A DNA stretch of 64,000 nucleotides, taken from contig JAVXUO010002910.1 in the NCBI GenBank assembly GCA_033065855.1, positions 1-64,000 on the forward strand, written 5' to 3'. Origin of the DNA: Escallonia rubra (Eukaryota; Streptophyta; Magnoliopsida; Escalloniales; Escalloniaceae). Of the stretch, positions 22,138 through 46,012 are shown piece by piece (the stretch's first letter is position 1; the number at the start of each line of letters is the position of its first letter). Below the pieces are notes generated by a model that had not been told where the DNA came from, ran no database searches, and was given only the letters and a program-made list of their open reading frames with translations. Position numbers and translations under genes: made by a program.

Positions 22138-22302
22138 TCAGCTCTTTGGCAACGTCAGCCTTCCTCTGAGCTGAAGAAGGGAACGTTCACAGCACTCGCG
22201 GTGATAGACACAGCACGAAGGTGGCCACCAGCCTTGAGCACCACCCATTGAAAGTGCGAGCACCACCGCTATCACCGCAAGCATCTGTAATCCCCCTGCC
22301 AT
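22138..22302 (-). CDS. Small secreted cysteine-rich peptide, copy A (54 aa)
   Basis: A 54-residue frame whose N-terminus (MAGGLQMLAVIAVVLALSMG) is a classic signal peptide, probably cut after GAQG. The mature part of about 30 residues is WWPP-x-CC-VYHRE-CC-ERSLLQL and ends LPKS. The four cysteines (30, 31, 37, 38) could form two disulfides. The gene at 45848 encodes a diverged peptide of exactly the same length with the same CC-x5-CC, RSLxQL and LPK positions, which argues for selection on the protein. A TATA box (CTATATAAGC, 22351-22360) lies about 50 bp upstream of the ATG. I do not recognise the family. Such peptides are usually apoplastic signals or antimicrobials; which applies here is unknown. 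Copy B is at 38827. Confidence 0.72.
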   Translation of the reverse strand: MAGGLQMLAVIAVVLALSMGGAQGWWPPSCCVYHRECCERSLLQLRGRLTLPKS

Positions 22303-22350
22303 CTCTAGCTCTTCTTAGCCTATTTGCGCAACCCCTGCAGGCATGCTCGT

Positions 22351-22360
22351 GCTTATATAG
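22351..22360 (-). promoter_or_regulatory. TATA box of peptide gene A
   Basis: CTATATAAGC on the minus strand, about 50 bp upstream of the ATG at 22302. The identical box occurs at 39031-39040 before copy B. Confidence 0.5.
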
Positions 22361-22946
22361 ATGACACAGCAAGAGATACGGCAAGTGATTTGAATGCCGT
22401 TGATACGGTGAATCCCATTTATAACCAAATGAAATAATTTTCCTACAAGTCCTTTGTGGAGAAATTATCATGTGTACCTCTTTGGGTAATCACTTTAAAG
22501 GTGATTGAGATCAATTACAGATTAAACCTAGATTACATCAGATTTGAAGTATTTGAAAGAAAAAAAGAAAAAGAAAATTGATTTAATCTGCTTCAATCTG
22601 TTCAGAACTGATTAAATTCAGAATCATCATTTTCTTTGACTATGATTTAGGGAGTTTCTGAAATCAGGTTTGAGCAATAAAATTACCATCACGTATAACA
22701 GACACTAAATGCCCGATTTAGTTTTGAATACATTATATGGTCACTTTGCTACATGAAACCAAATTTGACTACACTATATATGGTCATTTTGCCAAACTAA
22801 ACTTATTTTTATCCCTTTTGTCCAAACACCTTTCAACAACTTTTAATCTATTATACTTAAAATAGATCAAAGCTGTTTTTAAAAACAGATTATGATCTAA
22901 TCAAAATTACTTTTAAAAATTAATCACAACGGGCCTCTTTGTCTAT

Positions 22947-24183
22947 TGTTGCAGCTAAAAGAGAACACGGAGTGACCGCCGGGTGGGGTTCCGGCGGGGA
23001 ACGCTCCGATGCTTAAGTCAGAGATGGCTAACAATGTAGAACTCTGAGAAGCAATAAAGATACAATGTGTATGTATGTGAGCTTGTCCATACCTGGGGGG
23101 CTTAACCCTTTTATATAGTGGTAGAAGGAGGAGCCCTAGTAGGACTGGGCTTTGACCAACTCTAATCAGAGTCTAATTAGGATCCTAGAGGATCACTTGT
23201 CTATCCCTGATGATAGAGTCAGAGTCCTTTTAGGAATTTATATGATAACTGATATAGCAAGTGCCAAATCAGTATGAAGTCAATAGGGACCACGTGTCAT
23301 AACTGCCACGTGTCATCCGTAAATTGGAGGCATATTTTTAGCTATATCATATGCCCCCTGCTTTTACCAGCGTTTAATGAAGCGGGTGGAAGCACACTTT
23401 TTCCACTGGTGATAGCGAAATATGCCAAAAGAGAATCCAATCCGTTTGTCTGACATTTCAAATATCGAAAGACAGTTCTGCTCGGACAAAGTTCTGCTCG
23501 GGTAGAATTGTGCTCGGCCAAGAGGCATTCTGCTCGGGCAGAATTGTGTTCGGCCAAAGAGCAATCTGCTCGGGCAGAGTGCTCGGTCACGATTCTGGTC
23601 GGGCAGAATTGTGTTCGGCCAAAGAGCAATCTGCTCGGGCAGAGTGCTCGGCCACGATTCTGCTTGGGCAGAATTGTGCTCGACCAATGAACATTCTGCT
23701 CGGGCAGTGCTCAGTCACGATTATGCTCGGGCAGCATTGTGTTCGGCCAAAGAGCAATATGTTCGGGTAGAGTGCTCGGCCATGATTCTGCTCAGGCATA
23801 ATTATGTTCGCCCCAAAGTCACTCTGCTCGGGCAGAATGTTCGGACAGGATTCTGCTCGGGCAGAATTTTGTTCAGCCAAAGTCACTCTGCTCGGGCAGA
23901 GTGTTCAGACAGGATTCTACTTTGGCAGAATTCTGTTCGGGCAAAGTCACTCTGCTAGGGCAGAATGTTCGGACAGGATTCTGCTCGGGCAGAATTCTGT
24001 TCGTGCAAAATTTTGGTTCATTCCCACGTGTCTTATTCCCCATTAATGCATTTGAGCGGGAATTTTTCAAATTTTCAAACTCCTCTTCTCTTAGCTTCTG
24101 CCACGTAGGGGGGTAGATGAATCGTTGGGTTCCCCAAATGACGGTTACTTGGAGTTTCTCTATAAGATGAGTCTTTCACTTCA
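22947..24183 (-). mobile_element. LTR of the Tat-like gypsy element
   Basis: Plus-strand borders read TGTTGCAGCT at the left and CACTTCA at the right, next to a TTTTTTCCCC tract that would be the polypurine tract in element orientation. A TATA box (CTATATAAAA) in element orientation lies at 23109-23118. Roughly half of the LTR is the GCTCGGGCAGA array. The length of about 1.24 kb is an estimate because the partner LTR is missing. Confidence 0.65.
23470..24010. repeat. GCTCGGGCAGA minisatellite inside the LTR
   Basis: GCTCGGGCAGAATTGTG, TTCGGCCAAAGAGCAATCT and GTGCTCGGTCACGATTCTG blocks alternate about fifteen times in units of roughly 60 bp. A shorter, diverged array of the same words lies at 30255-30400 between integrase and the extra ORF. 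Long open frames on both strands here (Ala/Arg/Glu-rich) are artefacts of the repeat. Confidence 0.85.
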
Positions 24184-24299
24184 TTTTTTCCCCACTCGAA
24201 TCATTTGGAAGCATACTACTCTTCAAGTAAGTCTCTTTTCCTATCCTCTTTATGTTCAGCACTTCAAGTTTTTCATAGTTTCCTAGTTTAATAGAAAAC

Positions 24300-27200
24300 A
24301 TGTCCGAAACTTCAGCGTCTATTTCTTCTTCCAAAGAGATTATAGATATAAATAGTAGTTCATCTTCAAGTTCAGAACGAGTTCCAACTTCATGAAGTGA
24401 CGTTGGAACTTCAAATCCACAACTTCCACAACCTTTGACTTCACAACCATTACCACCTTCATCCTCTTAACCTCCACAGCCTTCAACTTCTCAGCCTTCA
24501 CATTATTTGCCTGCTAAGAATGCCTTAGGAGATGTGAAGGATCAAGTCGAAGATAAAGCTAATCCTAAGCCTTGGTATACTGCTGATGAGAAGTCAAATA
24601 AGATGTCTACCGAAGATTTGTTGGAGTTGATTCGGGAATATCCTCTTCCCGAAGGTTGGTATGCTCGTCTTCCTGGTTTGCAAGAACCAGCTAATTATGG
24701 AACCAAGTTTGAAACTGGGATCTACGAAGAGCAGGTGAAGTCTGGGTATAGGCTTCCTCTTCACCCTTTTACTCTTCGTTTCTTCGAGCATTATCGCATG
24801 GTTCCCGGGCAGCTTGTTCCAAATGGTTGAAGGAAGCTTATTGGGCTTATATATTTGGTTCAGACTTCAGGCTACAAACCAGATGCAACAGATTTTATGA
24901 GAGTGTTCTTCGAAATCTGTTTCGTCAAAGGAGTCGCCAACTGCCCGGGATGGTATTACATTCATAGTAGGCAACGACTTCTAAAGGGTGGCCCAAAATC
25001 CAACAAGGTTTGGCATTCCAAATATTTCTTCATTGGTCGTCTTGATAAGGGGGAGTTACCCTTTGACAGAGATTGGAATCCTTTCTATAAGGATTTTGAA
25101 AACCCTGGCAAGCATACTCCCAACAATCTAACTAAGCACATACTTAGTCATATTAAGATTCGGGGCAGTCTTTCCATTGATAAGCCTCTTTTGGAGGAGC
25201 AATTAGAATGGGTGAAGATTATTCCTCGCAAGCCCTTTCCTGTGTGATACCCCAGAAAATACCAGAAATTAATCCAACCGTGAGTTTGATTATTTAAGGG
25301 GTGCTATTTTTATTAAGTAGCAATATGTTGGTGATAATTAAGTGTCAAGGAGTTAAATAAGGGGTTAGTGCGATTCTGGAGTCAAAGTCTAATTTTTCTA
25401 GGTTGTGGGGCCAAAGTGTAATTTTAGAAACTTTGGAGGCCAGAGTCCAAATTTTGAAAATTGGCAAGAGGTGTCACAAAATTGGAAGAAGCTGGTCCGA
25501 ATGATGCCACCTCCAGCTTGAATTTCTGATGACTAATTCCATCAAATATAAATTAATGGATTGGGTTAACTAGAAAAAAATAAAACAAAACGAAAGGGGA
25601 AGCCTTTCCCTTTCGGGAAAGAAATAAGCATAAGAAGAAAGAAGCAGAAAAGAAAAACAGGAAAAGAACGGAGAGAAACAGAGATCAGAAGGAGAAGGGT
25701 AGAACTTCGGGAGAGAAACTGGAGAAGTTAGGGGGATTTGTTCGAAGGTAATCCCTTGTTTTTCAAGTTGTAATTCCATTGCGCGAATCAGTGTAGGTGT
25801 CGGGTGCACTGTAAACGGATGTGGAGCACTGAAGGCTTCGTGGGTGTGTGCAGGTGTGAGTTCATGTATATTAGGGTGTTCCACGTGGGGATTAGGGGGA
25901 ATAAAAGCTTGGGCCTTAGAAAGTGTAATGTGAAAATCAGTGTGTTTTGGGGTCGTGAGTGTGTTTGTGTGCACTTCAGTGTGTGCCGTGTGTGTGTGTT
26001 TTGAGTTTGTGGGTTACGGGTGAGATGGTGTGCGTTAATTAAGTGTTAAAATGTGTGTTTAAATGTGTGTAAAGTGTAATTAAGGTGATATAATGCATTC
26101 ATAACAACTTGGAATGGATTGGAGATGAATTAGGTAGTGGCTATGAAGTGGATGTGGGATGAACACCACGGCTGAAGGAAGAAGAAAGTGTGTGTGGAAA
26201 AAGGTGCAGTAGTGTGTGCCTTTGATTTGAATAGTGACTGTAATTGTCACTAAAGATAGAATTCTTTTAGGCAGTTTCCTCATGAATTTTTATAAATGAT
26301 TCGGGACAAAATTGGACAAAGTGCCAAACTGTAACCCCAGTTATTTTTGAGAGACCTATATCATGGGAAAAGTTCAGATTTTTCTGAGGTCGGGAAGGTG
26401 GGTTAACCGCTGCGAGAACTTTGAAACCTTGCAGTGAAAAATTAAAATATTAAACGAGCACGGTTTCGTGTGAAACTTTTATGAAAAAACTAGGATGTTG
26501 GGAACTTCCATTTCCCAGGATTTTGGTTCATTCCAAAGTTGTTAGCCAGTTTTGGCCGAACGGGCTTTTAAGCGCTCGGTCCAGACACCGGTTTAGGATT
26601 TTTGGGCAAAAATTTTGTAAAATACTTTTTAGCTCGAAAATTATTTCAGGACTCTTAAAATAGTGTTTTAAAGCGGTTTTGAGATTTTTCTAGTACCGGA
26701 AACAACTCAGGGGGGCATTTTGGTAATTTGCCACCAGAGAGGGGTATTTTGGTAATTTTTCTGATAAAAGTTTTCGAAGGACTTGTTAGTCCGGCAACAG
26801 TTCTAAAATGCCTGAAAGGTTGTTTTGAGGTTAATTTGGGGTGTTGTGGTGTAGCGGCCATCAGGAGGTATTTTGGTAATTAGCCATGTTGACGCCAAAT
26901 TTTTGGGAACGCGCATTATTAAATGTCCAGAATGGTGGAAGGTGAGGAATGGTGTTAATACGTCTAACATGAGGGGAGATTGTTATCGATAATAAGTCGA
27001 TAAGGCTAAATTAAGGATCCGGTTATCGGATCGAATTAACTAGCTATCATAAGATGCTATGAACGGTTAAGTGGGAAGGGGTAGAATAGGAGTGCGTATA
27101 TGTTGAATGCTGACTAACGAGCAGGATATGATTTGACTAGGTGATGCAGCTCGTTGCGATCAGAGATTGCGAGTTACTTCGGCTATAAGCCAACCAAGTA

Positions 27201-29893
27201 AGGACAATACGGTTCTGATGTGCTAATCCATTGTTCGATTAGCATGCCATGTTGATGACGTATTGTTGAATTCTTGTTGTTATGATTGGTCACCGGTAGT
27301 CGTTGTGACCGGTATACGTATATTTGAATTGTGCTGTTGAGGACTTAGGGTAGAATAATTCCCTTAGTCCGCCCTGTTGATAGAATTTAGTGAGGATGAT
27401 GGGTGTCCCAGTATGCTATGATTCGATTCGATTAGCATACCTGAAGTCGATGATGATATTGTGTAGGAGTTGTCGTGTGGTTGTTGTGAGATGCCGGCAG
27501 TTATTGATAGCCGATATCTCTTCTCTTTGAGAACACTATTGAGGACTTGTGGCAACTTCTCCCGAGTCCGCCCTATCGTTGATAATGATGTTGTTGAGGT
27601 CGTTGCATGTTGTTGTGAAATGTTGGCACTTATTGATAGTCGACATTTCTCTTATGTAAGAACGTTGTTGAGGGCTTGCGGTAGTCTTCTCCCAAGTCCG
27701 CCCTGTTGATGATGTCACGTTGAACTCTTGTTGTTATGTCTGAACACCGGTTGATTTGTTGATCCGGTATTCCTTGTTGAGCTGTGTTGTTGAGGACATA
27801 AGGTGGAATAAATTTTCCCTTAGTCCGCCCCGTTAATGATGTCTTGTTGCATGGCCATAACGTTGTTAGGGAAAGCACTCTAAATGAGCTCCCTGCCTGT
27901 TGACAGTGTCTCTTCTATTTATTTGAGACTGAGATGAACATCCCGTAAAATGGGACATCAATATGATGAGGATGGCCTGTGAAACATGATCACTGGCAAA
28001 GAGGATGTAGGGCGCGCGAGTCGAGTCTGTCATGTCTGGTCAAGTCTAGTCTGTCGTGTCTGAGTTGCATTGCATTTGATTTTCTTTTGATGTTAATGAT
28101 TTTAATGACTTGTATTTCGTTGATGTTTATCTTTTCAATTTCTTATTTTAGTGTTCACTTGCATAGTCAGTCTGTCTGTCGGTCAGTCAGTCTTGTCCAT
28201 GATGAGGTGGCAGTAATGCTGTTCTATTGGGCCTTAAAGCCGCTCAGTCTAACGAAAGAAAAATTATCGTTTGACAATTATGCTGATGTCAAAATTTATT
28301 GACTACTCTTGATTCATTGCTATCGTTGAGATGATTATTATTCCTCCGAGTCTCTTGAATCATTTGTATACGATACTCCTCGTGTTGTCTTTACTGGGCG
28401 ATTTGCGCTCATTCCTTATGTTGTATTGTGCAGGCTATGAGGTTGATCAAGGAGAACCTTCTAGAAAGGAAAAATACAGAAGCTAGAAAAGTTGAGTAAG
28501 GGAGTCAGTTGTGTGAGGTAAGAACAACTAGGAATTGTGGAATAAAGAATGTGTTGCGAGATAGGTTGATAAGAGTCCTACGACTACAGTCGTATATTAG
28601 GTTGTAAACTTTCATGTTATTTAAAGACTTGAAAGTCTTCCGCTGCAGTATGATGTATGTTGGTAAGAAATTTTTTTGTAAGGACGCAATTTGGAGCGTC
28701 TATTAATGATGTATGAGTATGAGGATGTAGTTGCTCTGTATTCAGCACAGGATTTTGAATGTGATTATGGTTGATAACTCAACCCGGTGATGTCACCTGG
28801 GTTGAGGGTGTCACATCCTGCTGGTCTCTCGATTTTTCCTCTTCCTCCTGCTATTCCTGCCATGTCATCCGCCGAGACCGTTCCTCTAGGTGTGCTTCAT
28901 ATAAGTCATTGATTTCAATTTGGTTTCAATGTTTATTCTTGTATTGATTCCTTTCTTCATTGCATAAATGGCTAGTGGAAGTGGAAAATCACCGCAAATA
29001 GGCTTTCTTGGTGTTCTGTAGAAAGCCAAGGGGAAACGGAAAAAGAAGCAGCCGAGTGCGGAGTTGTCCCCTGCTCCAAAGAAGACAAGAGTCACTCCTC
29101 ATGAACGTTCTCCATAAATCCTTGAGCGAGTGTCCATTGATGATGATCCCATCTTCCGACCGAGATGGACACTTAGGCACGATGACCTTGGGATGCCAGA
29201 TAGCCAGATCTCTGAGCAGCATCTTCTTCATGGAGTTCTTCCTCGAGACAAGGAGGTTTTCCATAATCAGACTCATGAGACCTTTGCATGTTCCTTCGCC
29301 CAGGTCGTGTATACGGTAATATCCTTTCTCCCAACTAATTTTTTTGTTCGCTTTTTCAAGCTTCCTTTCGTTGATCTTTCCAATCTTTATTCCAGATGTA
29401 CGCGAGTGGGTCTAAAATGTTGTCTCGCTTTGAGATGGCGAGGCAGGTGGCAGTCGAGGAGGCTCAGCAGAAAAGGGATACCATTAAAGAAGCAGAAGAA
29501 GCTAGCCGTGGTGCTGAAGAGCTGAGCAAGCAAGAGGTAGATTATCTTGCTCAGATTGCGACTCTGGAGAAGAAACTGGAACGAGCAAAGAGGAAGGCGG
29601 CAGAAGAGGTGACGAAAGCTCGAGACCAAGGCGTTCGCGACTTCCTGGATGGAAATGCTGGGGAAGAATGGCTGAAGAAGCGGATAGAAGATGGCGTAGA
29701 GATTTATGAGCTGGGCTTTGCGAAGCCCAAGGAGATGTTCGCTCAGCGTTTTCCTGACATTCCTTTGGATGACTTCGTGATACCTGAGATCGTGTCTCCA
29801 TCTGGGGAGACAGCTATGCCTTTAGAGGCAGGGGACACCGCAGCTTCTCTTCCCCCAAAGGAAGGCCCTTCAGGAGATGCCCCCGAGCCTTAG
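24300..29893 (+). mobile_element. Extra antisense ORF region of the gypsy element
   Basis: Fossil coding region on the strand opposite pol, lying on both sides of the nested solo LTR. The left part (24507-25242) has the gypsy-type transposon domain (EGWYARLPGLQEPANYG, YRLPLHPFTLRFFEHYRMVP, CPGWYYIHSR). The right part (about 28990-29893) includes a long charged coiled coil (LEKKLERAKRKAAEEVTK) and an acidic, Pro-rich end. Family knowledge places such ORFs between pol and the 3' LTR of Tat elements; their function is not established. The region is broken. Confidence 0.7.
25243..28815. mobile_element. 3.6-kb solo LTR nested in the gypsy element
   Basis: Starts TGTGATACC and ends GGTGTCACA, with a perfect 5-bp target duplication TCCTG at 25238-25242 and 28816-28820. 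No internal retroviral coding region is found, so it is a solo LTR, left after recombination between the two LTRs of a full element. Length and termini fit large Ty3/gypsy LTRs of the Tekay/Del kind; the lineage is tentative. It contains about four copies of a roughly 125-bp repeat with a TCCGCCCTGTTGAT core (27340-27850). It is younger than its host element. Confidence 0.88.
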
Positions 29894-30558
29894 ATTTTGC
29901 CTTTGTATCTAGGCTCTTCTGTTTAGACTGAGTATTTTGATGCCCTTTCAAGGGCTTTTGCAAAACTCTATCTTTTTTATTTCATGCTACTTTGCTTTAC
30001 TATGTGTTTCTCGTGGTTTACCATTCACACAGTATTATTTATTTTTACTTTGACTCAAACCCTTTATTCGTCACTTAAAGAGTTGACAAAGAAGTTGAGC
30101 ACCCTCGCTCGGCCTAAACTTAGAAGAAGCAAAAGCTTTGGTGGAGTGACGATGCCCCCGTTAACTTTTGTTTCTTCACGGACTTAGATCTGCAGCTAAT
30201 TCGTTTGGCCTATTCTTGTATTTTTATAAAAACCAAGAGTTATACACTCTGCTTGGAAAGAGTGTTCGGCCATCACTCTGTTCGGACATAATGTTTTGTC
30301 TAAGTTTAGCACTCTGTTCGGGCAGAGTATTCGGTGGATAATCTGCTCGGGCAGAATAATTGGCTAAGTTTACATTACAACAATGCTTAGAAAAATAACT
30401 TTATTGCTCGAGCAAAAGATAAAGTTTACACTAGATTGCTTAACAACCCATTTATTCAAAAAAATCTGCTAAAGACTATTTCTAGAAGATTGGGATTTTG
30501 TTGAGGTCTGGGCCCCTTATCCCCCCAAAAAAGAAGCATTTTGCCTTGGGGCAAGATG

Positions 30559-33500
30559 TTATTGGTAATATCTACGTAAATTCTCAGCATTCCAAGTACG
30601 AGGGATGGGTTCTCCTGAAAGTGTTCCCAGTGTATAGGCACCTGGTTTGAGCACCTTTAGAACACGATAAGGTCCTTCCAAGTTTGGAGATAACTTTCCC
30701 GTCGCTGCCTTTGGATCAGAAACTTCTAACTTGCGCAAGACCAAATCTCCTTCTTAAAACTGCTTGGACCGAACCCTCTAATTGTAATAACGCGCGACCC
30801 GTTGTTTTATAATAACATATCGTTCATGTGCTTGAGTTCGAGCTTCTTCTACTAAATCAAGACTTGCTCGGAGTCCAACTTCGTTGAAGTGCAAGGCCTG
30901 TATTGTTAGAACTCCTACCTCAACTGGCAGCATTGCTTCCGTTCCATAGTAGAGTAAGAAAGGCATTTCCCCTGTGACCGAATGAGGAGTTGTTCGATAA
31001 GCCCACAACACCTTGGGGAGTTCATCCACCCATTCGCTTTTAGCTTCATCCAGCTTCTTTTTTAACCCTTGCAAGATGCTTTAGTTCATGTTTTCAGTTT
31101 GGCCATTGGATTGTGGATAGGCTACAGAAGTGAATCTCAAATCGATCGAAAGATTCATACAAAAGGTTCAAAAGTTGCTGTTGTCAAACTGCTTCCCGTT
31201 GTCAATGACCAGAGCTCTTGGTACTCCAAAACGGCAGACCACATTTTTCCAGAAGAAATCTTCACATTTGGCTGAAGTAATGGTTGTCAGAGATTCTGCT
31301 TCAGTCCATTTAGTGAAGTAGTTTATTGCCACGATCACAAATCGTCGTTGTCCATGCGCCATAGGAAAAGGGCCTAGCAGATCCATTCCCCATATAGCAA
31401 AGGGAATCGGAGAAACAATCGCACTTAAAGGTGCGACTGGTGTATGAGAAATTGGAGCAAACTTCTAACACTTATTGCATCTTCGTGTAAATTCGATGGC
31501 GTCTTTCTACATCTTAGGCCAATAATATCCTTGCCTTAAGATTTTCTGTGCCAATGTCCTCCTTCCAAGATGTTGGCCACATATCCCTTCATGTACTTCT
31601 TGTAATGCGTATAAAGATTCTGATGGGCGTAAACATCTCAGGTAAGGAAGGCTGAAGGATTTCTTGTATAGAATTCCTTCCACTAATGCATACCGAGTAG
31701 CTTTGACACGAAGGTTCCTCGCCTCATGTCTTTCACTTGGTAATTCACCTGTGGACAAATATTTGATGATCATGTCCATCCAACAAGGTTCTTGATCTAT
31801 CATTTCAATCTCAGCTTGAGAACTGATACTGTGATCCTTGAGGAATCCAAGGTATACCGAGCGTCGAACATCTGTTTCTTCAGCGAAAGCAAGCCTTGAT
31901 AATGTATCTGCCTGAGTATTCTGATCTCGGGGGATTTGACGAATGGTGAAGTTTTTAAACTTCACAGCCGAAGTTTTAACTAACTGGAGATATTGAGTCA
32001 TTCTTTCGTCTTTGGCCTCATAATCTCCTAAGACATGATTGACCACCAGTTGGGAATCACTATGAACTGATAGCGAGTCCACCTTTAAGGCATGTGCTAG
32101 CCTTATCCCCGCGAGAAGAGCCTCATATTCTGCTTCGTTATTTGAGGCTTAAAATCCAAAGTGAAGCGCGTACTCAATAATAAAACCTTCTGGACTTATA
32201 AGAATAATTTCGGCTCCACTACTACCAACAGCTGAAGAACCGTCTACATAAAGATTCCAAGGATCGGTAACCTCAGAAATCACCAACTGAGGGGGTTTTT
32301 CAGGTAATGTACACTCGACAATAAAGTCTGCTAGGGCTTGAGCTTTAATTGATGTGCGAGGTTTATATTGGATATCAAATTCCCCCAACTCGACGGACCA
32401 GTTTACCAATCTTCCTGATGCCTCCGGGCTCAGTAAAACCTTTCTAAGTGGTTGGTCCGTCAGAATGACAATGGTATGAGACTGGAAATACGGTTGAAGA
32501 CGCCTAGCTGATATGATAAGGGCTAGTGCAATCTTTTCGATCTTCGGATATCTTGTCTCTACATCTTGTAAGACTTTGTTGACGTAATAGATGGATTTCT
32601 GGACTCCATCCTCCTCTCTGACTAAAACAGCGCTAATTGCGACTTCGGTGACCGAGAGGTACAGAAACAAGTCTTCTCCAGGAAGTGGTTTCGAAAGTAG
32701 GGGCGGAGAACTCAAGTATGTTTTGAGTTCTTCGAACGATTTCTGACAATCGTCCGTCCAAACAAAATTTTTCGCTTTCCTGATGGCTTTGAAGAATGTT
32801 AAGCATCGTTCAGCGGATCGAGCCATGAACCTTCCCAAGGCTGCGACCCTTCCTGTTAACTCTTGTACTTGTTTGATGGTTTTTGGGGACGTCATGGTTT
32901 GAATGGCTTTGATCTTTTCTGGGTTTGCCTCAATTCCTCGTTGAGAAACCATAAAACCCAAAAATTTCCCTGATGCAACTCCAAAAGCGCATTTGAGTGG
33001 GTTCAGCTTCATTTTATACTTTCGAAGGATGTCAAAAGTTTCCTTCAAGTCCTTGACATGGAATTCAGACTTTACACTTTTGACGAGCATATCGTCAACA
33101 TAGACTTCCATGTTCTTTCCGATCAAGTCTCGAAAGATCATGTTCACCAGGCGTTGGTAAGTTGCCTCGGCGTTCTTGAATCCAAAGGGCATTACTTTAT
33201 AGCAGTATAACCCTCTCTCTGTGATGAACGAGGTTTTGGAGACATCGTCCTCGTGTATCATAATCTGGTTATAACCAGAATATGCATCCATAAAACTAAG
33301 TAATTCATGGCCCGAAGTAGCGTCATAAGAAGATCTATCCTTGGGAGCGGGTAGCTATCCTTCGGGCATGCTTTGTTGAGATCTGTGTAATCGATACATC
33401 TTCGCCATCTGCCGCCTGACTTAGGAACCATGACAAAGTTGGCGATCCAATCCAGGTAGTAGATCTCTTCGATGAAATTGGGAGTTAGAAGTTTATTTAC

Positions 33501-34439: not shown

Positions 34440-36122
34440 CTGGAGTAGTCTAGCAAAAATGAAGATCGACGTCTTTGTGAAGGGTTGCTTCTTTGAGCCA
34501 CGACTGTACTGGAAGGACTGGGATGCCGGGACAAGGGAAGCCTTGTGGGAGGAGTGGCTAGTATGGTTTTCCTTTTTTTAAGCTATTATTCATTTAATTA
34601 GTACCTTATATTTAAATTAATCGTACTAGTCATTTAAGCAAATACCTTACATGAGGAGTTCGAGTTTGAGTCGCCTGAGCAACAAGCATTGAGGCGGTAG
34701 GCTTTTTTTTGCCTACATCGGCAAAAATATCAGCGATGGCTACATGACGCACGGAAGCGGGTGAGGAAAATGCTACCTGAGGGTGTCCTGATGGAGGAGT
34801 GGAAGGGGTATCTCCCTCATTGGATCTCACCATCTGTATGGGGGCAGATGGTTGATAGGTGGATCACTGATCCAGTCTGGGAGGCGAAGAATAAGAGTGG
34901 GAGGATCCTACGCGCACGCGCAGGGGATGGGAGGGGGGGGGGTTTCGGTGCATCACGACGTCGTCCGATATAGGAATGCGGCTGAGCATCCGAACCTGGA
35001 GAAGGATGAGGTATGTGCTTTGACGTACACGATGACACATACGAGGAAGAATGATAAGGATGACGCACATCGGGTGGGGGACTTCGTTTCAGATACTTTC
35101 CAGTAGATCGATGTAAGTTACAAATTAATTTTGTTTCTAGTTAAAATTTCAGTGATGTATTCGATGTTTGTGGCCTTAATGTCTTCAATGTCAAATCCTA
35201 TTTTGAAGGCCTGATATGCACAAGTCAGGGGGTTCTAGGTAGTAGTCCGGATAGCCATCAATGTCCACAAGTACGAATATGAGTACCAGGGGATTGAAGC
35301 GATAGCTGGATACACCGGGGGTCGTCAATATGCCAAAAGGGCACGTGCGCGGCCTGCCTGGCACGACTGCACGTGACGTGATAGGAGCGTCCCCACCCCC
35401 TGCTGCCCCTCCACAGAACAGTTATACCTGGACAGGATCCATTGCATTGCTGAGGAAGTGTTCAGAATGATCAGGGCTCAGGGTCAGGTACAAACACTAT
35501 ATACGATTGTTAAACACTATATATGATTACGATCGAGATTAATGCCTCCGAGCCTTTACTTGCTGGACACTGTTGTTGGACATACCGAGTCGGATCCGGA
35601 TGATAGTACCCCCGTAGACGAGGACAACCAGTAGGATCCAGATCCTGGTCTCGACAAGCCCCGAGCCCTTCCCCTCTTCCCCTTCCGTGCTCTTCTGGAG
35701 TTGTGCTCCCCTCCCCTATTTATATCCCCTTCCTGCACTTTTCCCCGCACCCATGTTATATTTGGTTCACAGTTCAGAACAAACTTTGTATATATTTTAT
35801 TTTTTAATTAGTGTAAAATTTTGAAATTTGAATATATATATATATATATATATATGGTTAAATAATTGCTGATGGATCAGCAATTATTTAATCCTAATGT
35901 GGATTGAGAATTGAGTTTGAGATTTGAATTTAAGTTACAGGTTTGGGTATTAAAAAAAAATTCATTATATTTTTAGCGACAAATTTTATTCCGTCGCTAA
36001 AAGTCTTTAGTTATAGTGTACTAAAAATCTTTTAGCGACGGAATTTTTTGCTGCTAAAACTATCACCGACGGAATTCTAACAATGGAATTGTCCGTCGCT
36101 AAAAATCTCTTTTCTTGTAGTG
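34440..36122 (+). mobile_element. CACTA right-part remnant, copy B
   Basis: Carries most of a CACTA-borne accessory gene, then an (AT)n tract, a 34-nt near-palindrome at about 35867 and subterminal CGTCGCTAAAA motifs, ending in CTTGTAGTG at 36122. No CACTACAA left end was found, and the left side runs into the gypsy element near 34318. The last 550 bp match copy A at 19681-20290. The gene inside is related to that in the complete CACTA element at 49806-55867. Confidence 0.82.
34459..35640 (+). pseudogene. CACTA-borne PF03004-type transposase gene, decayed
   Basis: Three exon-like parts. 34459-34560 encodes KIDVFVKGCFFEPRLYWKDW. About 34655-35106 encodes FEFESPEQQALRR, a stop, AFFAYIGKN, then in other frames PHWISPSVWGQMVDRWITD and YTMTHTRKNDKDDAHRVGDF. 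About 35205-35640 encodes the Ser/Gly-rich C-terminal part. The core matches the plant Ptta/En/Spm transposase family (PF03004), an accessory protein of CACTA elements. Against the better copy at 54109 there are at least one stop and two frame changes, and the acceptor before the second exon is changed (GAG for CAG), so no normal product is expected. The catalytic TNP2-type transposase is absent. Confidence 0.75.
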
Positions 36123-38387
36123 CACTCTATAGATTGTTAGGTATTGTTTAAAGAAAGCTAGTCTGCAGCTCGGTTATTAAGCACAAGAACTATTGCTAAT
36201 TTAAAACTAATATATCCAATTTAATTTAACATCATCTTTTCCCTTCTAAATCTCATATGTTATGTTGTTTTTTTTTACATATACATTTTATTAGAGAGTG
36301 ATTTTAAGAACACACATGTTAAAATTAAGTCATAGTATGTTGGTATATTGGTTAAGTAGTGTCTTAGATCGTTTCAGACTTGTTTTTAAATTATATAACT
36401 TACACTAATTGTTTCTGTAAAATTAAGCCAATTTGAAGTTAGGACCCCATCAAAAATAATAGTTGAAGACCTTTAAAGACACTCATATGTTAGGTATATC
36501 ATTTTAAACCCTTTTTAATTATTAGATCTATTAATATGTTTTACTTCCTACATTGCCAATTTTTTTTTTCCTCGATTAAATATGGATGGAGCAATAAAAA
36601 AAAGTATGAAAAGGGTAAACATATGAAAAAATACGTACTAAATCTTTCTTAATTTAAAAAGTGATCAATTTTTTTGGGACTAACGAAAAAAAATGAATAA
36701 TGAATTTTTTTAGGACAGAGGGAATATTAGTATTACCAATTAGTTAATTAAACTTAAATAGCCATTATTTTTGTCGCGAGAAACTATTCACATATATTGC
36801 CCTTTTTTTCAAAAGGATTGTCTAAGCTTTATATTTTTACAATGATTGTGATAGATAAAAATGTAATAATAAGCTGTTACATTATATTTTCTTTTGTTTT
36901 AAATCTCACAAGTTATTTATCATTTTTGGTCTACAGATTGTTATTTTTATATTACATAATACTTTTGCAAGGATGTAATAGTCAAAATTGAGTCTTAATT
37001 TTTTATTATATTAGTTAGGTAGAGTTTTAGAATTGGTTTTTAAATCATAATAAAATTACATTTTTAAAAAGTAATTGCTTTATAAAATAAGACCACATTC
37101 AAAATAACATCAGAGACCTTTTTTGACACATTATCACATTATATTTTCTACACTTTTATGTTTAGATGATATCTAAAAATATATTTTACTTCGTTTAGAA
37201 AATAGAATGGAACAATGTGTCGGGTAGGGAAGCAAACATAATATAATGATAATGTGATGATGTATAGCGCAATGAAGCTATGGTTGAGTCACATTGCGTT
37301 TTTCTCTTTACTTGTCACATATTGCATAAGAGATAGGTTGATGACATCACCAAGGCCAGCCTACGGACCACCCATTGGGCCACCTAAAGTTGCCAGAGAG
37401 ATAGTGTCAAAGTTGCAGACTTACTGTTGAAGGCCCAATTGTCGACAACAAACGTTACTCATCATAAGCAATTACTCGATTAAACATGACATTCTTCTGG
37501 ATTGGCGGAATGATCAGTCTCACATGATGCACTGACAAATTCTTTGGATACTATTTTGGTTTTGACGCTTTGGTAAAGATTTTCCATTTTTCAAGTTCAG
37601 TTTTAAAAGGCATCAACTTCAAATACCATTCCTCAACTCTTTGTCAATATATTGTTGGAATATAATCACTTATTTTGATATATAGGTGTGTTCTTTTATC
37701 GTTTTCAAAATGCTACTTAAATTATTGCCATTATTTCTATCATACTTTAAATATGTTTCCAGCAATCTGATATATGTGTCTCCTATCTTTTCCATATTGA
37801 GTATTGCACTTAATCCATATGAAAACGGAAAATGTTGGGTATTGCACTTAATTCTTTTGATATTATATGCTCTTTGAGTCTTTGTGTAAGGAGATGGAGT
37901 CAACCTCGCAGAAATCACCATGGGGAAAAGGAAAAGGCTACGCACCGAGTGAAGAATAAGATATATGAAATCAGTTAAAGTATTATTCAACTTTTAGAAG
38001 AAACATACTCGTCTTTTGCAAAAGAATAACTAAATAACTAAATATTCTTTTTTTTTTATAATTTTCAATACGCAGTTAATGCATGAAAAAATGCTAAACA
38101 AAATTATGAAAAGAAAAAAAAATCGACGAACGGATTTAAAGTGATCAACGCTTCTACCCCCGTCAATCTTCGGTCTCGGGTTTACTTCAGCACATAATCA
38201 CCATGACACCATATGTATGTCAACTTTCACGACATCACTTTTGTTTTCGTTCCCTTCTCCACTTGGCCTTAGAAAAAATTAAAAAGATACAATTACTATA
38301 CCAAATATATTATTATCGTTTTCATGGTAAGAACTGGGCAAACTAATTCATTACTTTGCATTATTTGATGGGATTACATAAGACAAA

Positions 38388-38793
38388 GGGCCCGTTTGAC
38401 ATGGCTTTTCTTTCCAAATTTTTTTTTCAGTTTTGTAAACTGGAAAAAATAGTTGCGTTTGGTAACTATTTTTCTTTTTTTTTCTTCAGTTTAAAAAATC
38501 AGTTTTTAAATCAAGGCTATTTTTGAAAACTCAAAAAATGAGTTTCGATTTTCAGTTTTGGTTTTTTTTTTTTTTTTTTGAGACCACTACCACTACCACC
38601 CTCCCACTGCCGGCAACCAGCTCCGGCGACTGTCGGCGGCCACCGCCACCGCAAATCGCTACAAAAAAAAGAGAAAAAAACTCAAAAAAAAACTGGATTA
38701 TCAAACACCCATTTGTTTTTGTAAAAAAAAAAAATTTAATTGCTCTTTAGGTTTTTTTTAGAAACTGAAAAAAAAAATGTTGTCAAACATAGC
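38388..38793. mobile_element. T-rich MITE-like element, copy B
   Basis: Left end GGGCCCGTTTGACATGGC, right end in reverse GGCTATGTTTGACAACA, with matching T-rich TTTTCAGTTT subterminal blocks and a GC-rich centre. It is the cleaner of the two copies and better shows the inverted-repeat structure. Superfamily is uncertain. Confidence 0.55.
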
Positions 38794-38826
38794 CAAAAGT
38801 TAAAACCATTGAAAGTTTTCGCAGCC

Positions 38827-38964
38827 TCAGCTCTTTGGCAACGTCAACCTTCCTCTGAGCTGAAGAAGGGAATGTTCACAGCACTCGCGGTGATAGACAC
38901 AGCACGGAGGCGGCCACCAGCCTTGAGCACCACCCATTGAAAGTGCGAGCACCACCGCAAGCAT
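38827..38964 (-). CDS. Small secreted cysteine-rich peptide, copy B (45 aa)
   Basis: Copy of peptide gene A within duplicated segment B. The original ATG position reads GTG here, so translation would have to begin at the next in-frame ATG (38964), giving 45 residues. An in-frame 9-bp loss in a GCGGTG repeat also shortens the signal region, but MLAVVLALSMGGAQG is still a plausible short signal peptide. The mature part keeps CC-VYHRE-CC, with S-to-P before the first cysteine pair and R-to-H after the second. The TATA box at 39031-39040 is unchanged. It may be functional or on the way to becoming a pseudogene. Confidence 0.55.
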   Translation of the reverse strand: MLAVVLALSMGGAQGWWPPPCCVYHRECCEHSLLQLRGRLTLPKS

Positions 38965-39883
38965 CTGTAATCCCCCTTCCACCTCTAGCTCTTCTTAGCC
39001 TATTTGCGCAACCCCTGCAGGCATGCTCGTGCTTATATAGATGACACAGCAAGAGATACGGCAAGTGATTTGAATGCCGTTGATACGGTGAATCCCATTT
39101 ATAACCAAATGAAATAATTTTCCTACAAGTCCTTTGTGGAGAAATTATCATGTGTACCTCTTTGGGTAATCACTTTAAAGGTGATTGAGAACAATTACAG
39201 ATTAAACCTAGATTACATCAGATTTGAAGTATTTGAAAGAAAAAAAGAAAAAGAAAATTGATTTAATCTGCTTCAATCTGTTCAAAACTGATTAAATTCA
39301 GAATCATCATTTTCTTTGACTATGATTTAGGGAGTTTCTGAAATCAGGTTTGAGCAATAAAATTACCATCACGTATAACAGACACTAAATGCCCGATTTA
39401 GTTTTGAATACATTATATGGTCACTTTGCTACATGAAACCAAATTTGAGTACACTATATATATGGTCATTTTGCCAAACTAAACTTATTTTTATCCCTTT
39501 TGTCCAAACACCTTTCAGCAACTTTTAATTTATTATACTTAAAATAGATAAAAGCTGTTTTTAAAAATAGATTATGATCTAATCAAAATTACTTTTAAAA
39601 ATTAATCACAACGGGCCTCTTTGTCTATTAATTAAGCCAATCACATTTACTCCAACAGATTTGTATTGCATTGATTTTGATGTTTTAAACGAACAGTCGG
39701 CATTATATCATGGGGATATTATATGTTCAACTTTTCTCATTGCGACTAAAGAGCATGGGTCTGAACTTTACCAAAATAGATTGAATATATATATTGAGCA
39801 AATCTGCGGAACCAACTAAGAAATAAAATCTCTTCATATCATCACATACGCAGGGGCGGAACTACGGGGGGTGACAGGGGGGG

Positions 39884-42800
39884 TAGAGTTGTCATTTGGG
39901 CCGGGGGCCCCGCGGGCCGGCCTGTTTTGGCCCGTTTTTGGCCCGGGCTGGCCCGGCCCTCCAAATGAACAGTAGAAGCCCGAAAAAGGGGGCCAAGGGC
40001 CTGGGCTTGGACCAGGCCGCGATATGGATCAAAAATGGCCCGGCCCGGCCCGGGTTTGGCCCGGCCCGGGTGGCCCGGGTGCGGCCCGGATTTGGCCCTG
40101 GTTTGGCCCGGGCTTTTTGGCCCGGCGGCTGGCCCGGTTTCTGGCCCGTTTTTGGCCCCACTTGTTTTTTGAAAATCTACTTTTCCCCCCCTTTCTTCCA
40201 CCCCTTTTCCAAAATTCCACTTTTACCCCCCCCAACAGCTATATAACGGCTAGTTTGGGGGGTATTTTAGTCTAACCAATTTCTTTCACTCCTTTACACT
40301 TTTACCCTCCCCAACAACTATAAACGGATAGTTTGTAGGGGTATTTTGGTCTTTTGTGAAGTTTCTAAAATCTATAAATTCACACCATTTCTCTCTAATT
40401 TTTCACACCAATCTTCTTTCTCTCTTCTTACTCTCACAACAAGCTTTGCTACTATTTTCCTCTCCAATTACTACTCTTGCTAATTACTACTAATTAGTAT
40501 TCTTGTTATTTACTAATTGCAAATTTCTTTCTACTCTTGCTAATTACTACACTAGTCTTGCTAAATTTTTTTTTTAATTACTAACACTCTAATATTTGTT
40601 ACTCGTTCATTCTTTTAATTGTTATTTCTTATTACTACTCTTATACTTGTGTATTTAGTTACTCTTACAAAGTTTAGCGTGAAATATGGCTGGATTATTG
40701 AAGAAAATGAGGCGTGCATCGTCATCACGAAAAACGTCATCATCGTCGCAAGCACCATCACCAGCACAAGCGCCAGCGCCACGGCCAGCACAAACACCAG
40801 TCCAAGCACCAACACAACCATTCGTTCCTGGACGAATGAGTACAGGCTGTATGATAGATACCCAAGCCAATTGGGAGTTCAATCAAAACATTCCAAATTT
40901 TACATACACGCCTGATGAAGACCCCCCGCATTATAGTCAAGGACGCAGCTCGGTTGGCGAAGCTACTACTCCGTGGCCTAATCTCAACCCTACCTCCAGT
41001 CATGATGAAGAAGGGCCGAGCAATGCCTCCGGTAACGTTCCAGACGTCCAAAGGGGAAAAAAAAAACCCGAGTGTTGGAATCATTTCGACGAAGTTACGG
41101 TGGACGGCATCCGAAAAGCTCGATGTAAGTACTGTCTTAAATTATTTTCGGCTGGTAGTGGTAATGGACATCTTAACAGGCATTACCCTCAGTGTGCACC
41201 TCGACAAGGCCACGTCGAACCTACCCAAACCCAGTTATCTTTTGACGGTAGGTTATTTGTCTATAATCAGCGAGAGCAAAGAGACGGTCTCGCTGAATTT
41301 GTTATTCACGATGAACAACCCTTTTCTTTTGCCGATAATCCAAGGCACTCTAGATATATGAACTCCTACGTTCAACCTTTGTACAAAAAGGTTCATAGAA
41401 ACACAACGAGGTCCGATGCACTCCGTCAGTACAAGGCTGCCAAAGCACGCCTTATCGATTATTTCGATAAATTTGACGGTAAAGTTAGTCTTACTTCTGA
41501 TATTTGGCAATCTCCTTATACTTTTGTTAGTTATTCTTGTGTGACCGCTCATTGGATTGATGCATATTGGGTTATGCACAAGAGAATCATCGCTTGCGAG
41601 AACTTCCCTTATCCGCACGATGTAATGAATATTGCTACTCTTATATTACAAGCATGCACAACATTTAAAATTCTTAATAAGATTATGAGTGTTAGTTTTG
41701 ATAATGCTTCTAACAATAAAGTTGCTGTTGCGGCTTTAAAGGAGACGCTTCAACCTGTACTTCAGGGTGAAGTATTTCATACAAGGTGTGTTTGCCACAT
41801 TATTAATTTAATTGTTCAAGATGGTTTAGCTGCTGCAGGAGATATTCTTCAGAAAATGAGGGGTATGACAGCGTATGTCAATAGCTCGAGTCCGAGAACA
41901 CAACAATTTAAAGCGTTGTGTGTTCAATATAATATGCCTCGCAAGAGAGCATTTACAGATGTGGTCCACAGGTGGAACTCTACGTACCACATGCTTTTAC
42001 ACATTCTGGCATACCGAGAAGTCTATACGCATTTTCTACTAACCCAGTTCCCATCCGGCTTGCCAACTCAAGAGGAATGGCAGATGGCCATATACCTAGC
42101 TGAATTTTTGGAGGTATTCTACACGTCTACCAATTTATTGTCTGGTACGTACTATCCTACCTCTCCTCTCGCTTTAATAGAAATTCTGAAGATGGCTACA
42201 ATGCTAACAAAATGGAGATATATAGGACCATTTAAGGATATAGTAAAAGTGATGGATGCAAAGTTCAATAAATATTGGAAGAAACTGCCTGCTATTTTTA
42301 CTGTTGCTACTTGTTTAGATCCTAGGTTAAAGTTGCATGGCGTGAACGCCTCGATACAGGAGATATCGAAATTAATGTGCTACAAAGCAGATGACACAAC
42401 CGCACTCACAGCGAAAGTGAGCGGGAGGTTTGAGGACTTGTTCAACCTCTATCGTAATTCTGCTGACATGCGCGGCCGAGCTACATCATCATCAACTGTT
42501 GAGAGGTATTATGCGCCATACCTTCAAGGCTTTGAACATCTAGTAGCAAGACAACTACCAGGTGAAGGTACTTCTAATTCGGGAGGTTCGTATAATTTTT
42601 CCTCTTTTAATGAGATTGGTGTATATGCAAATACTGATCATTATTCTGATTTATCAAGGCAAGAACAGGTTAATTTTAACTTGTTAAATTTTTGGAAACA
42701 AAATCAAAACATGTATAAAACTTTATCCCAAATTGCACGGGATGTACTGCCAGTGCAAGCCTCCACGGTTGCTTCAGAGTCGGCATTTTCAGCAAGCGGG

Positions 42801-43472
42801 AGGGTTTTGGATGACAGGAGGAGTCGTCTTAACCCCGAGTCGCTCGAGCTATGTGTATGTTGGAAGGATTATCTTGATGCGAAATACCGCGAGCAAGATA
42901 AACCGATTGATGATAGGAAGAGCAGTGACTCGGATATTGAAGCACTTCCAGATGATTAGGTAATTTGTTTTTATTTTCCTCTTTTCATCCTTTTGGTTGA
43001 CGCTGCAGATTTCTTGATCTTTGATTGCTGATATTTTGGATAGACATAATTATTATTTTGATTGTTAGAGTTTTAGGAATAATTTTTTTTCATATATATA
43101 AAATAAATTTTTACAAGCAAAAAATATATATTTTCGTATATATAAAAAAATAGGTAACTTCGCCTGTTTGTTTACAAGCAGCCGGTCCGAAGCCCGGATA
43201 AAAGGAGGAGGGCCTATGCACATTTATTATTTTTCTATGTAAATTGTTATGTGTTAAAATTGAATAACATGATAAAAAAAAAAAGGGCCTGGGCCCGGCC
43301 CAAGCCCGGCCCTAAATATTGGGCTTAGGGCCTGGGCCTGGACCAGGCCTAGGATTCACTGCGCCAGGCCCGGCCCGGCCCGGCCCGTTTTTCCCCTCCC
43401 TCGGCCCGGCCCGTTTGCAGGCCCGATGGGCTTGGGCTGGGCCGGCCCAAGCCCGGCCCTTTGACATCACTA
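39884..43472 (+). mobile_element. Autonomous-looking Ac-type hAT element
   Basis: Ends TAGAGTTGTCATTTGGGCC (left) and TAGTGATGTCAAAGGGCC (right, reversed). The flanks are G-rich 8-mers that agree at 7 of 8 positions; the exact end is ambiguous by one base. Both subterminal regions (39900-40150 and 43285-43465) are packed with GGCCCGG words, presumably transposase-binding sites. It contains an intact transposase gene. A TATA box (TCTATAAATT) lies at 40371-40380. It sits inside the Tip100-like element. Confidence 0.85.
40686..42959 (+). CDS. hAT (Ac-like) transposase, 757 aa, intact frame
   Basis: One uninterrupted frame. The N-terminus is basic (LLKKMRRASSSRK) and then Ala/Pro/Gln-rich. Residues about 128-172 form a BED zinc finger (C147, C150, H166, C170). 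The RNase H-like core follows, with likely catalytic D272 (TSDIW) and D339 (SFDN). The hAT C-terminal dimerisation domain occupies about 685-740 (LPVQASTVASESAFSASGRV, DDRRSRLNPESLELC). Length and order are normal for Ac-family transposases. The promoter-like TATA at 40371 gives a leader of about 280 bases. With intact ends on both sides the element could be active, or was recently. A domesticated hAT gene (DAYSLEEPER-like) is unlikely because the terminal repeats are still present. Confidence 0.93.
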   Translation: MAGLLKKMRRASSSRKTSSSSQAPSPAQAPAPRPAQTPVQAPTQPFVPGRMSTGCMIDTQANWEFNQNIPNFTYTPDEDPPHYSQGRSSVGEATTPWPNLNPTSSHDEEGPSNASGNVPDVQRGKKKPECWNHFDEVTVDGIRKARCKYCLKLFSAGSGNGHLNRHYPQCAPRQGHVEPTQTQLSFDGRLFVYNQREQRDGLAEFVIHDEQPFSFADNPRHSRYMNSYVQPLYKKVHRNTTRSDALRQYKAAKARLIDYFDKFDGKVSLTSDIWQSPYTFVSYSCVTAHWIDAYWVMHKRIIACENFPYPHDVMNIATLILQACTTFKILNKIMSVSFDNASNNKVAVAALKETLQPVLQGEVFHTRCVCHIINLIVQDGLAAAGDILQKMRGMTAYVNSSSPRTQQFKALCVQYNMPRKRAFTDVVHRWNSTYHMLLHILAYREVYTHFLLTQFPSGLPTQEEWQMAIYLAEFLEVFYTSTNLLSGTYYPTSPLALIEILKMATMLTKWRYIGPFKDIVKVMDAKFNKYWKKLPAIFTVATCLDPRLKLHGVNASIQEISKLMCYKADDTTALTAKVSGRFEDLFNLYRNSADMRGRATSSSTVERYYAPYLQGFEHLVARQLPGEGTSNSGGSYNFSSFNEIGVYANTDHYSDLSRQEQVNFNLLNFWKQNQNMYKTLSQIARDVLPVQASTVASESAFSASGRVLDDRRSRLNPESLELCVCWKDYLDAKYREQDKPIDDRKSSDSDIEALPDD

Positions 43473-43557
43473 GGAGGGGTGCTTTTCAGGAATTGCACGG
43501 GACCCGTTCCCCGAGACCCCGTCCCAATTATTAGTACTTGGTATTCTTAGTTTGAAC

Positions 43558-44147
43558 TAGAGGTGAGCATTTAAACCGTTGAAACCGATCCAACCGTGAA
43601 AACCGAACCAACCAATCCGTCTATTTTCAAACCGATCTAAAAATCAATCGGTTTGGTTTTTTTTTCCCAAACCGTACATTCGGTTCGGTCGGTTCGGTTT
43701 GAATTTTTTTGAAACCGCATAAACCGAACCAACCGTATATAATATAACATATCTATATTTTTATATAATCCTAGTTATTTTTTACTAATCTTAGTTATCT
43801 AACTATTTATATAAAATGAGATAAATCCTAAATCTCTTAACGTAACACACATTTTTCACTTACCGCCTACATCTCACTAAGTGTTATTAATTATGATTAA
43901 AAAATTCAGTTTTTTGGAACTTATTAGTATGTATAAGTTATTAATTTTTGGGCCTAAACTTGCCCAAAATTGAGTTTGGCTCAAATCGATTAAATCGTCC
44001 AAATCGAACCGTTCAATCTGTTCAACCCGTAGAAACCGAACCGTTGAAACCGAACCGTTCAACTTTTTTTTCTCCAAAACCGAGGTTGGTCAGTTCGGTT
44101 TGGTATTCAGCCTCCAAACCGAACCAACCGAACCGTGTTCACCCCTA
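43558..44147. mobile_element. 590-bp non-autonomous hAT (MITE)
   Basis: Ends TAGAGGTGAGCATTTAAACC and, reversed, TAGGGGTGAACACGGTTCGG, with a perfect 8-bp target duplication GTTTGAAC at 43550-43557 and 44148-44155. Both subterminal regions carry many AACCGAACC words. The AT-rich centre has no coding potential. It is inserted into the body of the Tip100-like element. Confidence 0.9.
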
Positions 44148-44707
44148 GTTTGAACTATTAGTATAGGACTCGAGTAAAGCTCAGGGAGTTAAAACATGAA
44201 ATCAAAGAAAACTGAATAAACAATGAAGATAGTAACATATGGGCTGTTTGTTTTGGGGTGAGGATAGCATATTCTAATTTACTGTGTCGCTTTCTTGCAC
44301 CCTATCAGTTCGATACTTTACTGGGGACATGCAATAAAGAAACATTATGACAGGTCAAACCTCCATATGCTGGTCAAACCTCTCATTTTTTCTCTCATTT
44401 TATCAAGTTAATGCAGGCACGGGGAGGTTTAGAATTAGACCAGCACCTGCATTGGTGGCTCCAACTGCTTATCATAACTCCTCATCAGCTATTGTGACTC
44501 TATGAGGTAATACATCAATTTTAGCACTTGCATTCCTTTTTTTTTTTTGTATTTGTAAAGAGTCTTTAATGGCTCTCGTGAAACTTAATAATACTTTTTG
44601 TATGCTTTTTAAGTACACTTTGTTTTTAATATTATTTTAATAAAAAAATTTGGTGAATTCGATATAATTTTTGCAGCCCCTGAAAAAAATTCTTGGTTCC
44701 GCCCCTG

Positions 44708-45840
44708 CACATACGTACTCTTGGAGCACCTTTTTAGTGTTTTATGGAGCGTTTTTAACCCTTTGATGTATGGGAAGAAGTCATTCACTTGCTAATTGAT
44801 TTCTGGAATTAAATTGATTGGTGTGGTTATTTGAATCATTCACATAAACCCAATCAACTACTTGTATTGATTTATTTTGATGCTTCCTCCGGAAGGTCGC
44901 CCCTTCTAGCGTCGTGTGGGAGCAGTTTAGGCTTAGTGTGTAGGTAATGTGAGTAGATATTACATGGTTCTGGACCGTTGGTCCAGACCAATTTTGAACG
45001 TTTGGATGTGGAGGGCCGATGCGATAAGAAGTGGGGCTTAGGGAGGCATGGGATTATTACACACTATATACCCAACGGTCATATAGATAATTTAGGTAGC
45101 AGGAAAACTCAGAGCACATTGAATAATGAGCAAATTTTTTACGCATACACTTATTTTTTAGCACATTTTTTTGTCTTCGTATCACATAAACTTATTTGTG
45201 AAGCATTTCTAGAGCGGCTCACTTTTGCAACTAATGGTAATATGGCGATCAATAATCATGGCTACTTGGGCAGGAGAGGTTGTAGGCTCCTGATATAACC
45301 TCGGTTTGCAGCCAAAACTTTCCCCCTAGTAATTACTTTGCATCATATTTCAGAACAAAAATTCTAGTATGGTAGAACAAAAATTCTGAGGTAAATTCTG
45401 ACTGGTAGAACAAAAATCCTGACTGGTAGAAGGTTAAAACTATCTTGAACAAATAAGCCTGAGGTAAATCAAATAACAAATAAGCCCGAAAAGAAAATTA
45501 GATAAACAAAAGTGTCCCAACGGCCTCTTGTTAATTAAAATGAATTTTGCTCGTAGCAAAAACTTGCACATGCATGTCTTGTGCCTTCGCTGACAAATCT
45601 TTTTACCTCTCATTTCAGGAGTACTGACTTTGAAACAAGTGTTTTTGCTTTTCAGTCTAGAAGTACTGATCAATATGTAACAGAGAGAGATAAAGATACA
45701 TTCAGCATAAACACAACCTGCAGATCATAACATTGGATTCATGAATTGAGTAACATGAACATTATTGATAGAGAGAGAGAGAGAGAGAGAGGAGAGCTAG
45801 AGGGCTCATTATCGAGCCCAAGAAAGTGCTAACAGAGCGC
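44708..45840. other. Intergenic stretch with one short hairpin
   Basis: No gene recognised. TCTGGACC-GTT-GGTCCAGA at about 44970-44990 is a perfect 8-bp stem. A (GA)n tract lies at about 45772-45792. The minus-strand end probably includes the 3' region of peptide gene C. Confidence 0.4.
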
Positions 45841-45847
45841 TATCTAG

Positions 45848-46012
45848 CTAGGGTTTTGGCAGGCCTTGAGCTTGAAGTTGAGGAAGTGAACGTTGACAGC
45901 ATTCGGGGTTATATCCACAGCACGGTGGCACACTAGGTGTATTTTTCGCAGCCACCACCGCCATCATCATCAGTACAATCAGCACCATCACCTTCACTAA
46001 AAATCTCACCAT
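45848..46012 (-). CDS. Small secreted cysteine-rich peptide, copy C (54 aa)
   Basis: A 54-residue frame with signal peptide MVRFLVKVMVLIVLMMMAVV followed by AAKN, then TPSVPP-CC-GYNPE-CC-QRSLPQLQ and the end LPKP. Cysteines 31, 32, 38 and 39 reproduce the CC-x5-CC core of copies A and B, with shared Y, E, RSL, QL and LPK; roughly half of the mature residues are identical, but the signal sequence is almost unrelated. This pattern, a conserved core with diverged DNA, suggests selection. A (C/T)ATAAT-type box lies at 46121-46130 and a pyrimidine/purine-rich leader precedes the ATG. The gene is transcribed on the same strand as A and B, 7 kb from B. Function is unknown; a secreted signal or defence peptide is the natural guess. 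Confidence 0.7.
   Translation of the reverse strand: MVRFLVKVMVLIVLMMMAVVAAKNTPSVPPCCGYNPECCQRSLPQLQAQGLPKP

Follow-up and report, generated by a model that had tools for sequence, protein, structure and literature searches.

Three short genes on one strand

The first 64,000 nucleotides of an Escallonia rubra contig (JAVXUO010002910.1 of GenBank assembly GCA_033065855.1, here C2356; positions 1-64000, the whole stretch being called the window) carry three short reading frames, A, B and C, which encode peptides made of a hydrophobic leader and a core with two vicinal cysteine pairs, CC-x5-CC. A first-pass annotation had described them as genes of one strand sharing the motif CC-x-Y-x-x-E-CC. 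Indeed, all three are found on the minus strand, and the plus-strand readings contain stops. The 54 residues given for both A and C were borne out, B having 45, and every copy closes with the LPK described earlier, followed by one further residue. The peptides read PPSCCVYHRECCERSLLQL...LPKS (A), PPPCCVYHRECCEHSLLQL...LPKS (B) and PPCCGYNPECCQRSLPQL...LPKP (C). Positions are collected in Table 1.

Searched whole (566 Mb in 3222 contigs), the genome contains four occurrences of the CC-x-Y-x-x-E-CC DNA pattern and none of its reversed control. Three are A, B and C; the fourth, on contig C79, sits in GT-rich sequence closely flanked by stops on both sides. The motif shared by A, B and C is not due to chance. 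When the pattern was relaxed to CC-x-[residue with a T-codon]-x-x-E-CC, 23 matches were obtained, compared with 6 for its reversed control: four are A, B, C and a further copy, D, one is the C79 spot, and distant members are possible among the other 18. This looser search also returned a near-identical pair, C902:37630-37656 and C1998:25496-25522, which could read CCASVNECC.

The intact genes A, C and D can each be read as a single exon of 54-55 codons with no need for an intron; A, B, C and D share the place where the frame stops. The TATA box of A and B is also carried by a pseudogene, E (TATATAAG, 63 bases above its ATG), and D has the upstream box TATATAAT 48 bases above its ATG.

Table 1. 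Features of the window discussed in the text
Feature	Position	Strand	Remarks
Copy A, coding sequence	22138..22302	-	intact, 54 residues; leader 22231-22302, predicted mature part 22141-22230
CC-x-Y-x-x-E-CC core of A	22189..22215	-	DNA pattern match
TATA box of A (TATATAAG)	22352..22359	-	57 bases above ATG; consensus match, conserved between A and E
Duplicated block with A	19696..22947		matches B block in two pieces, 93% and 90%
MITE-like repeat by A	21769..22109		ends ~28 bases beyond the stop codon of A
Copy B, 45-residue frame from internal ATG	38827..38964	-	GTG at the place of A's ATG; leader 9 bases shorter
CC-x-Y-x-x-E-CC core of B	38878..38904	-	DNA pattern match
TATA box of B (TATATAAG)	39032..39039	-	57 bases above GTG
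Duplicated block with B	35567..39629		37488-38302 unmatched in A block
MITE-like repeat by B	outer arms 38402-38427 and 38770-38795		like repeat adjoining B
Copy C, coding sequence	45848..46012	-	intact, 54 residues; leader 45947-46012, predicted mature part 45851-45946
CC-x-Y-x-x-E-CC core of C	45896..45922	-	DNA pattern match
TATA-like site of C (TATAATAG)	46120..46127	-	115 bases above ATG; weak, consensus match only
MITE, miniature inverted-repeat transposable element.

Copies inside and outside the window

The coding sequences (CDS) of A and B are identical at 150 of 156 aligned bases (6 differ), apart from one 9-base gap, and their ratio of nonsynonymous to synonymous substitution rates (dN/dS; here and below by the NG86 method on codon alignments set by hand) is 0.64. 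B is a recent tandem duplicate of A that has lost its start. Where A has its ATG, B has a GTG; an in-frame TAA lies four codons higher and no ATG stands between, so that only an internal ATG is left, with a leader of 15 residues. ATG is likely the older state at this position, because E has an ATG there as well. The near identity of these tandem duplicates means that B adds no independent evidence: of the three-member family first proposed, the related leader-plus-cysteine-core peptides stand, but three independent members do not, and the count of three holds for the window, further copies existing outside it.

Divergence between the A and B regions is uneven. Over the 258 bases upstream of the two genes a single site differs; identity is 98-100% in the upstream part (window 22303-22947 and its counterpart), 82% in the 28 bases past the stop and 96% in the far flank (19696-21659). 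Gene conversion or uneven mutation may account for this pattern. The MITE-like repeats beside A and B differ at 50 of 339 sites (85% identity); genome-wide, at least 54 stretches match the repeat, as counted with 40 of the 4336 candidates scored.

With C as query, a whole-genome protein search at an E-value of 0.001 returned C itself and D (C886:17443-17607, E-value 8e-20). D is intact, 55 residues long, and identical with C at 41 of 54 aligned residues. With A as query, a six-frame search of the whole genome at E-values up to 10 gave five matches from five candidates scored, namely A, B, E, D and C, the E-values being 1.5e-9 for copy E (C2583:10483-10653), 2e-4 for D and 0.004 for C. Together with a relic, F, the copies are spread over three contigs tied by homology; A, C and D are intact, B has lost its start, E is a pseudogene, F is the relic and there is one gap, on C886, whose positions 14916-15336 and 15346-16072 correspond to the sequences on either side of B. 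A to F are a real family of peptide genes related by descent. Contigs C2583 (reversed) and C886 overlap by ~7.5 kb at 99% and match C2356:99930-133339 in permuted order, C886 taking part with positions 1-17613; the permuted order reflects either a rearrangement or a misjoined contig.

Old constraint on the cysteine core

The mature parts of A and C align with a score of 76, against a mean of 21.3 for shuffled sequences (z 11.8; 0 of 5000 shuffles), and those of A and D with a score of 79 (z 11.8; again 0 of 5000). A and C are thus old relatives. The first-pass annotation had proposed their dN/dS as a check and had placed the greatest divergence in the signal peptide, and both expectations agree with what was found: dN/dS is 0.19 in the mature part (dN 0.28, dS 1.46), below 1, and 1.4 in the leader (dN 1.70, dS 1.20). 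The corresponding A-D values are 0.20 and 1.1, and A against E gives 0.97 over the whole frame with the stop skipped.

From the first CC on, A and C are separated by 24 changes over 24 codons, 10 of them amino-acid changes against a neutral mean of 14.2. Under neutrality, amino-acid changes this few arose in 187 of 14,920 stop-free trials for A-C and in 37 of 14,920 for A-D. In neutral simulations, run with a simple model without indels, none of 40,000 trials at d 1.3 preserved the ATG, the frame and the four cysteines together, and 1 of 40,000 did so at d 0.72; the copies compared had been noticed through their motif. A, C and D retain the frame, the four cysteines, ECC-x-RSL and the LPK end. 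The case for an old constraint on the cysteine core is thus moderate on substitutions alone and stronger once start, frame and cysteines are counted.

Starting from the observed frames, homology, copy history and old core constraint, we favor, with a probability of roughly 0.6, a small family of plant genes encoding secreted cysteine-rich peptides, local and evolving by birth and death.

Gene loss and the recent pair C-D

Several observations weigh against this reading. Some concern the family itself: A and B are absent from the whole-genome matches of C at an E-value of 0.001, and the A-C similarity taken alone is modest genome-wide (E-value 0.004 with A as query). Others are losses. In E, an A-type pseudogene, the fourth cysteine is replaced by tyrosine, a new cysteine lies further on and a TAG follows residue 47. 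F is a 14-residue relic (C2356:125153-125194, E-value 0.11 in a search of the three contigs), and its neighborhood resembles that of E with a DNA similarity of 87.8%. The 739 bases between the flanks of B (window 38359-39097), gene included, are missing on C886. The lost start of B, copies E and F and this gap all amount to gene loss.

The youngest intact pair gives no help either. C and D differ by 17.5 nonsynonymous and 3.5 synonymous changes, a dN/dS of 1.57 (leader 1.65, mature part 1.43), and 32% of 9305 stop-free neutral trials had as few amino-acid changes. The CDS is identical at 145 of 165 positions and the 3' flank at 380 of 428, the gene thus showing no extra conservation. Purifying selection is not seen in this pair, which in its substitutions looks neutral. 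The BLAST similarity of C and D stops 6 bases above the ATG, which means that the promoter may have been replaced. In the older comparison, the 24 core changes between A and C are spread evenly over the codon positions (7, 8 and 9), and the A-C test is biased by the copies having been noticed through their shared motif; the codon alignments were set by hand. Lastly, leader cleavage sites were placed by a permissive -3/-1 rule, which offers 6 possible sites in A, 2 each in B, C and D, and 5 in E.

These data could mean that a once-selected peptide family is now under relaxed selection, with most or all of the present copies drifting to loss. The C-D ratio of 1.57, the lack of greater conservation in the CDS than in its flank and the losses in B, E, F and at the C886 gap would all follow from this, which we nevertheless consider rather unlikely, because A, C and D keep the frame, the four cysteines, ECC-x-RSL and the LPK end. 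Between C and D, moreover, the CDS has a single indel, of 3 bases, and the flank has seven over 428 aligned bases, a weak point in that ATG, frame and four cysteines were kept by chance at the C-D divergence in 3629 of 40,000 neutral trials; the pair therefore says little. The earlier description of a selected secreted peptide accordingly stands for the past, with old core constraint (0.19 in the A-C mature part), but not for present-day selection (1.57 in C-D; E and F dead), and for the present use of any copy the youngest comparison offers no support.

Surroundings of the genes

The window contains 44 open stretches of at least 110 codons. Ten of them were submitted to Pfam, which recognized a plant mobile domain, MULE and hAT transposases and a reverse transcriptase, as fits plant DNA. 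The hAT transposase is a 758-codon stop-free stretch (window 40683-42956) between copies B and C. No tRNA gene was found in the window by ARAGORN, and no Rfam family matched it at the gathering score.

With MULE, plant mobile domain, hAT and reverse transcriptase genes nearby, and a MITE-like repeat abutting both A and B, one might take the peptides for chance frames or transposon passengers. This explanation is scarcely credible: diverged loci are homologous with the same frame, stop and core, and the peptide matches listed are confined to three linked contigs, unlike the dispersed MITE-like repeat. The A-C comparison largely contradicts it.

Leader and mature peptide

In the intact genes the hydrophobic leader is 22-24 residues long and ends at a site of the signal-peptidase type, AQG/W in A, VAA/K in C and VAA/N in D (the slash marks the predicted cut). 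A, C and D each have an 8-residue hydropathy peak of 3.5-3.6; the peak of B reaches 3.2 and that of E 2.9. The leader sequence is unconserved between A and C, yet the hydropathy peak and the -3/-1 site are present. A, C and D thus have a predicted secretory leader, as small secreted cysteine-rich peptides do; B, with its 15 residues, is marginal. In the predicted mature peptide, of 30-33 residues, five residues separate the two vicinal cysteine pairs and the tail is RSLxQL...LPK; all four cysteines fall in the mature part of A, B, C and D. Their charge, counted by hand, makes the mature products weakly basic (A +3, C +2, D +1). An AlphaFold model of C, computed from the single sequence, is weak (mean predicted local distance difference test score, pLDDT, 72.2; predicted template-modeling score, pTM, 0.38), with helices at 2-24, 30-33 and 36-48, the first being the leader and the other two lying at the cysteine pairs.

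The helix 2-24 in this model and the wholly hydrophobic run of residues 8-22 in C would also suit short membrane-anchored proteins, in which the hydrophobic stretch is an anchor bearing the CC-x5-CC head on one side. We judge this unlikely, since the permissive rule finds -3/-1 type sites past the hydrophobic run in A, C, D and E, and the leader sequence has been free to vary between A and C. A small metal- or redox-binding peptide, with the cysteine pairs as thiols rather than disulfides, is very unlikely: vicinal cysteine pairs are in general able to bind metal, but a secretory leader would predict oxidation in the endoplasmic reticulum (ER), and there are only four cysteines and no Pfam match for A, B or C.

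Comparison with known peptides

The motif had been said to belong to no described plant peptide family that was known, and library searches agree. No Pfam family, RALF included, matched A, B or C at E-values up to 10, and no family of the prokaryote library NCBIfam matched A, C or D at E-values up to 1. In the PDB nothing was found for C, and a profile gave one non-significant match (E-value 0.58). One short pattern each gave 3 matches in viral contigs and 29 in contigs of prokaryote genomes; none of these was confirmed by tblastn. An absence of relatives there is expected. The CC-x5-CC family was not found in the open-access literature, examined mostly at title level. The libraries compared being Pfam, NCBIfam, PDB and Rfam, the family may exist elsewhere, either without annotation or entered as a hypothetical protein. 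Plant annotations often omit genes of this size.

RALFs are secreted plant peptides with four cysteines, and these are not known to be arranged in vicinal pairs. The A/B/C family shares with them a secretion-type leader and the number of cysteines; the vicinal pairs are its own. In leader, short mature peptide and four cysteines it resembles the plant small secreted cysteine-rich peptides in general, from which it differs in the layout CC-x5-CC, with no other cysteine in the mature part, and in having no Pfam match. Four cysteines lie within the range of 2-16 given for cysteine-rich peptide hormones in the review PMC11756074. We would therefore describe the family as a new cysteine layout within a known broad kind.

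Outside plants, the layout is like framework V (CC-CC) of the cone-snail T-superfamily, in which a few residues likewise separate two vicinal cysteine pairs; according to PMC7216822, its two disulfides join the pairs, both 1-3/2-4 and 1-4/2-3 being reported. Framework V is of animal origin, and the peptides listed there are CC-x4-CC rather than CC-x5-CC. The likeness would be one of layout only, and homology is not claimed.

Proposed mode of action and meaning

For the birth-and-death family favored here, secretion, disulfides and activity are predictions from sequence. The leader would direct the peptide to the ER and be removed there. The two vicinal cysteine pairs would most likely bond with each other, as 1-3/2-4 or 1-4/2-3, giving a compact bead or knot with a free tail, and the mature peptide would be released to the apoplast to act as a ligand or defense peptide. 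The products are probably apoplastic signals or defense peptides; such a role fits the small size, the fast-changing leader and N-terminal part, the knot and tail held between A and C, and the birth-and-death history. A more specific proposal, which we hold only tentatively, is that of an old, undescribed plant family whose two-disulfide CC-x5-CC knot is the apoplastic ligand or defense peptide, the leader and N-terminal part evolving fast and the knot and the SLxQL...LPK tail being conserved.

If the genes are expressed, the layout of their peptides would be new, and since one genome brings together a diverged pair, a recent pair and dead copies, function would be directly testable. If they are not, they would clearly illustrate how a peptide family dies out.

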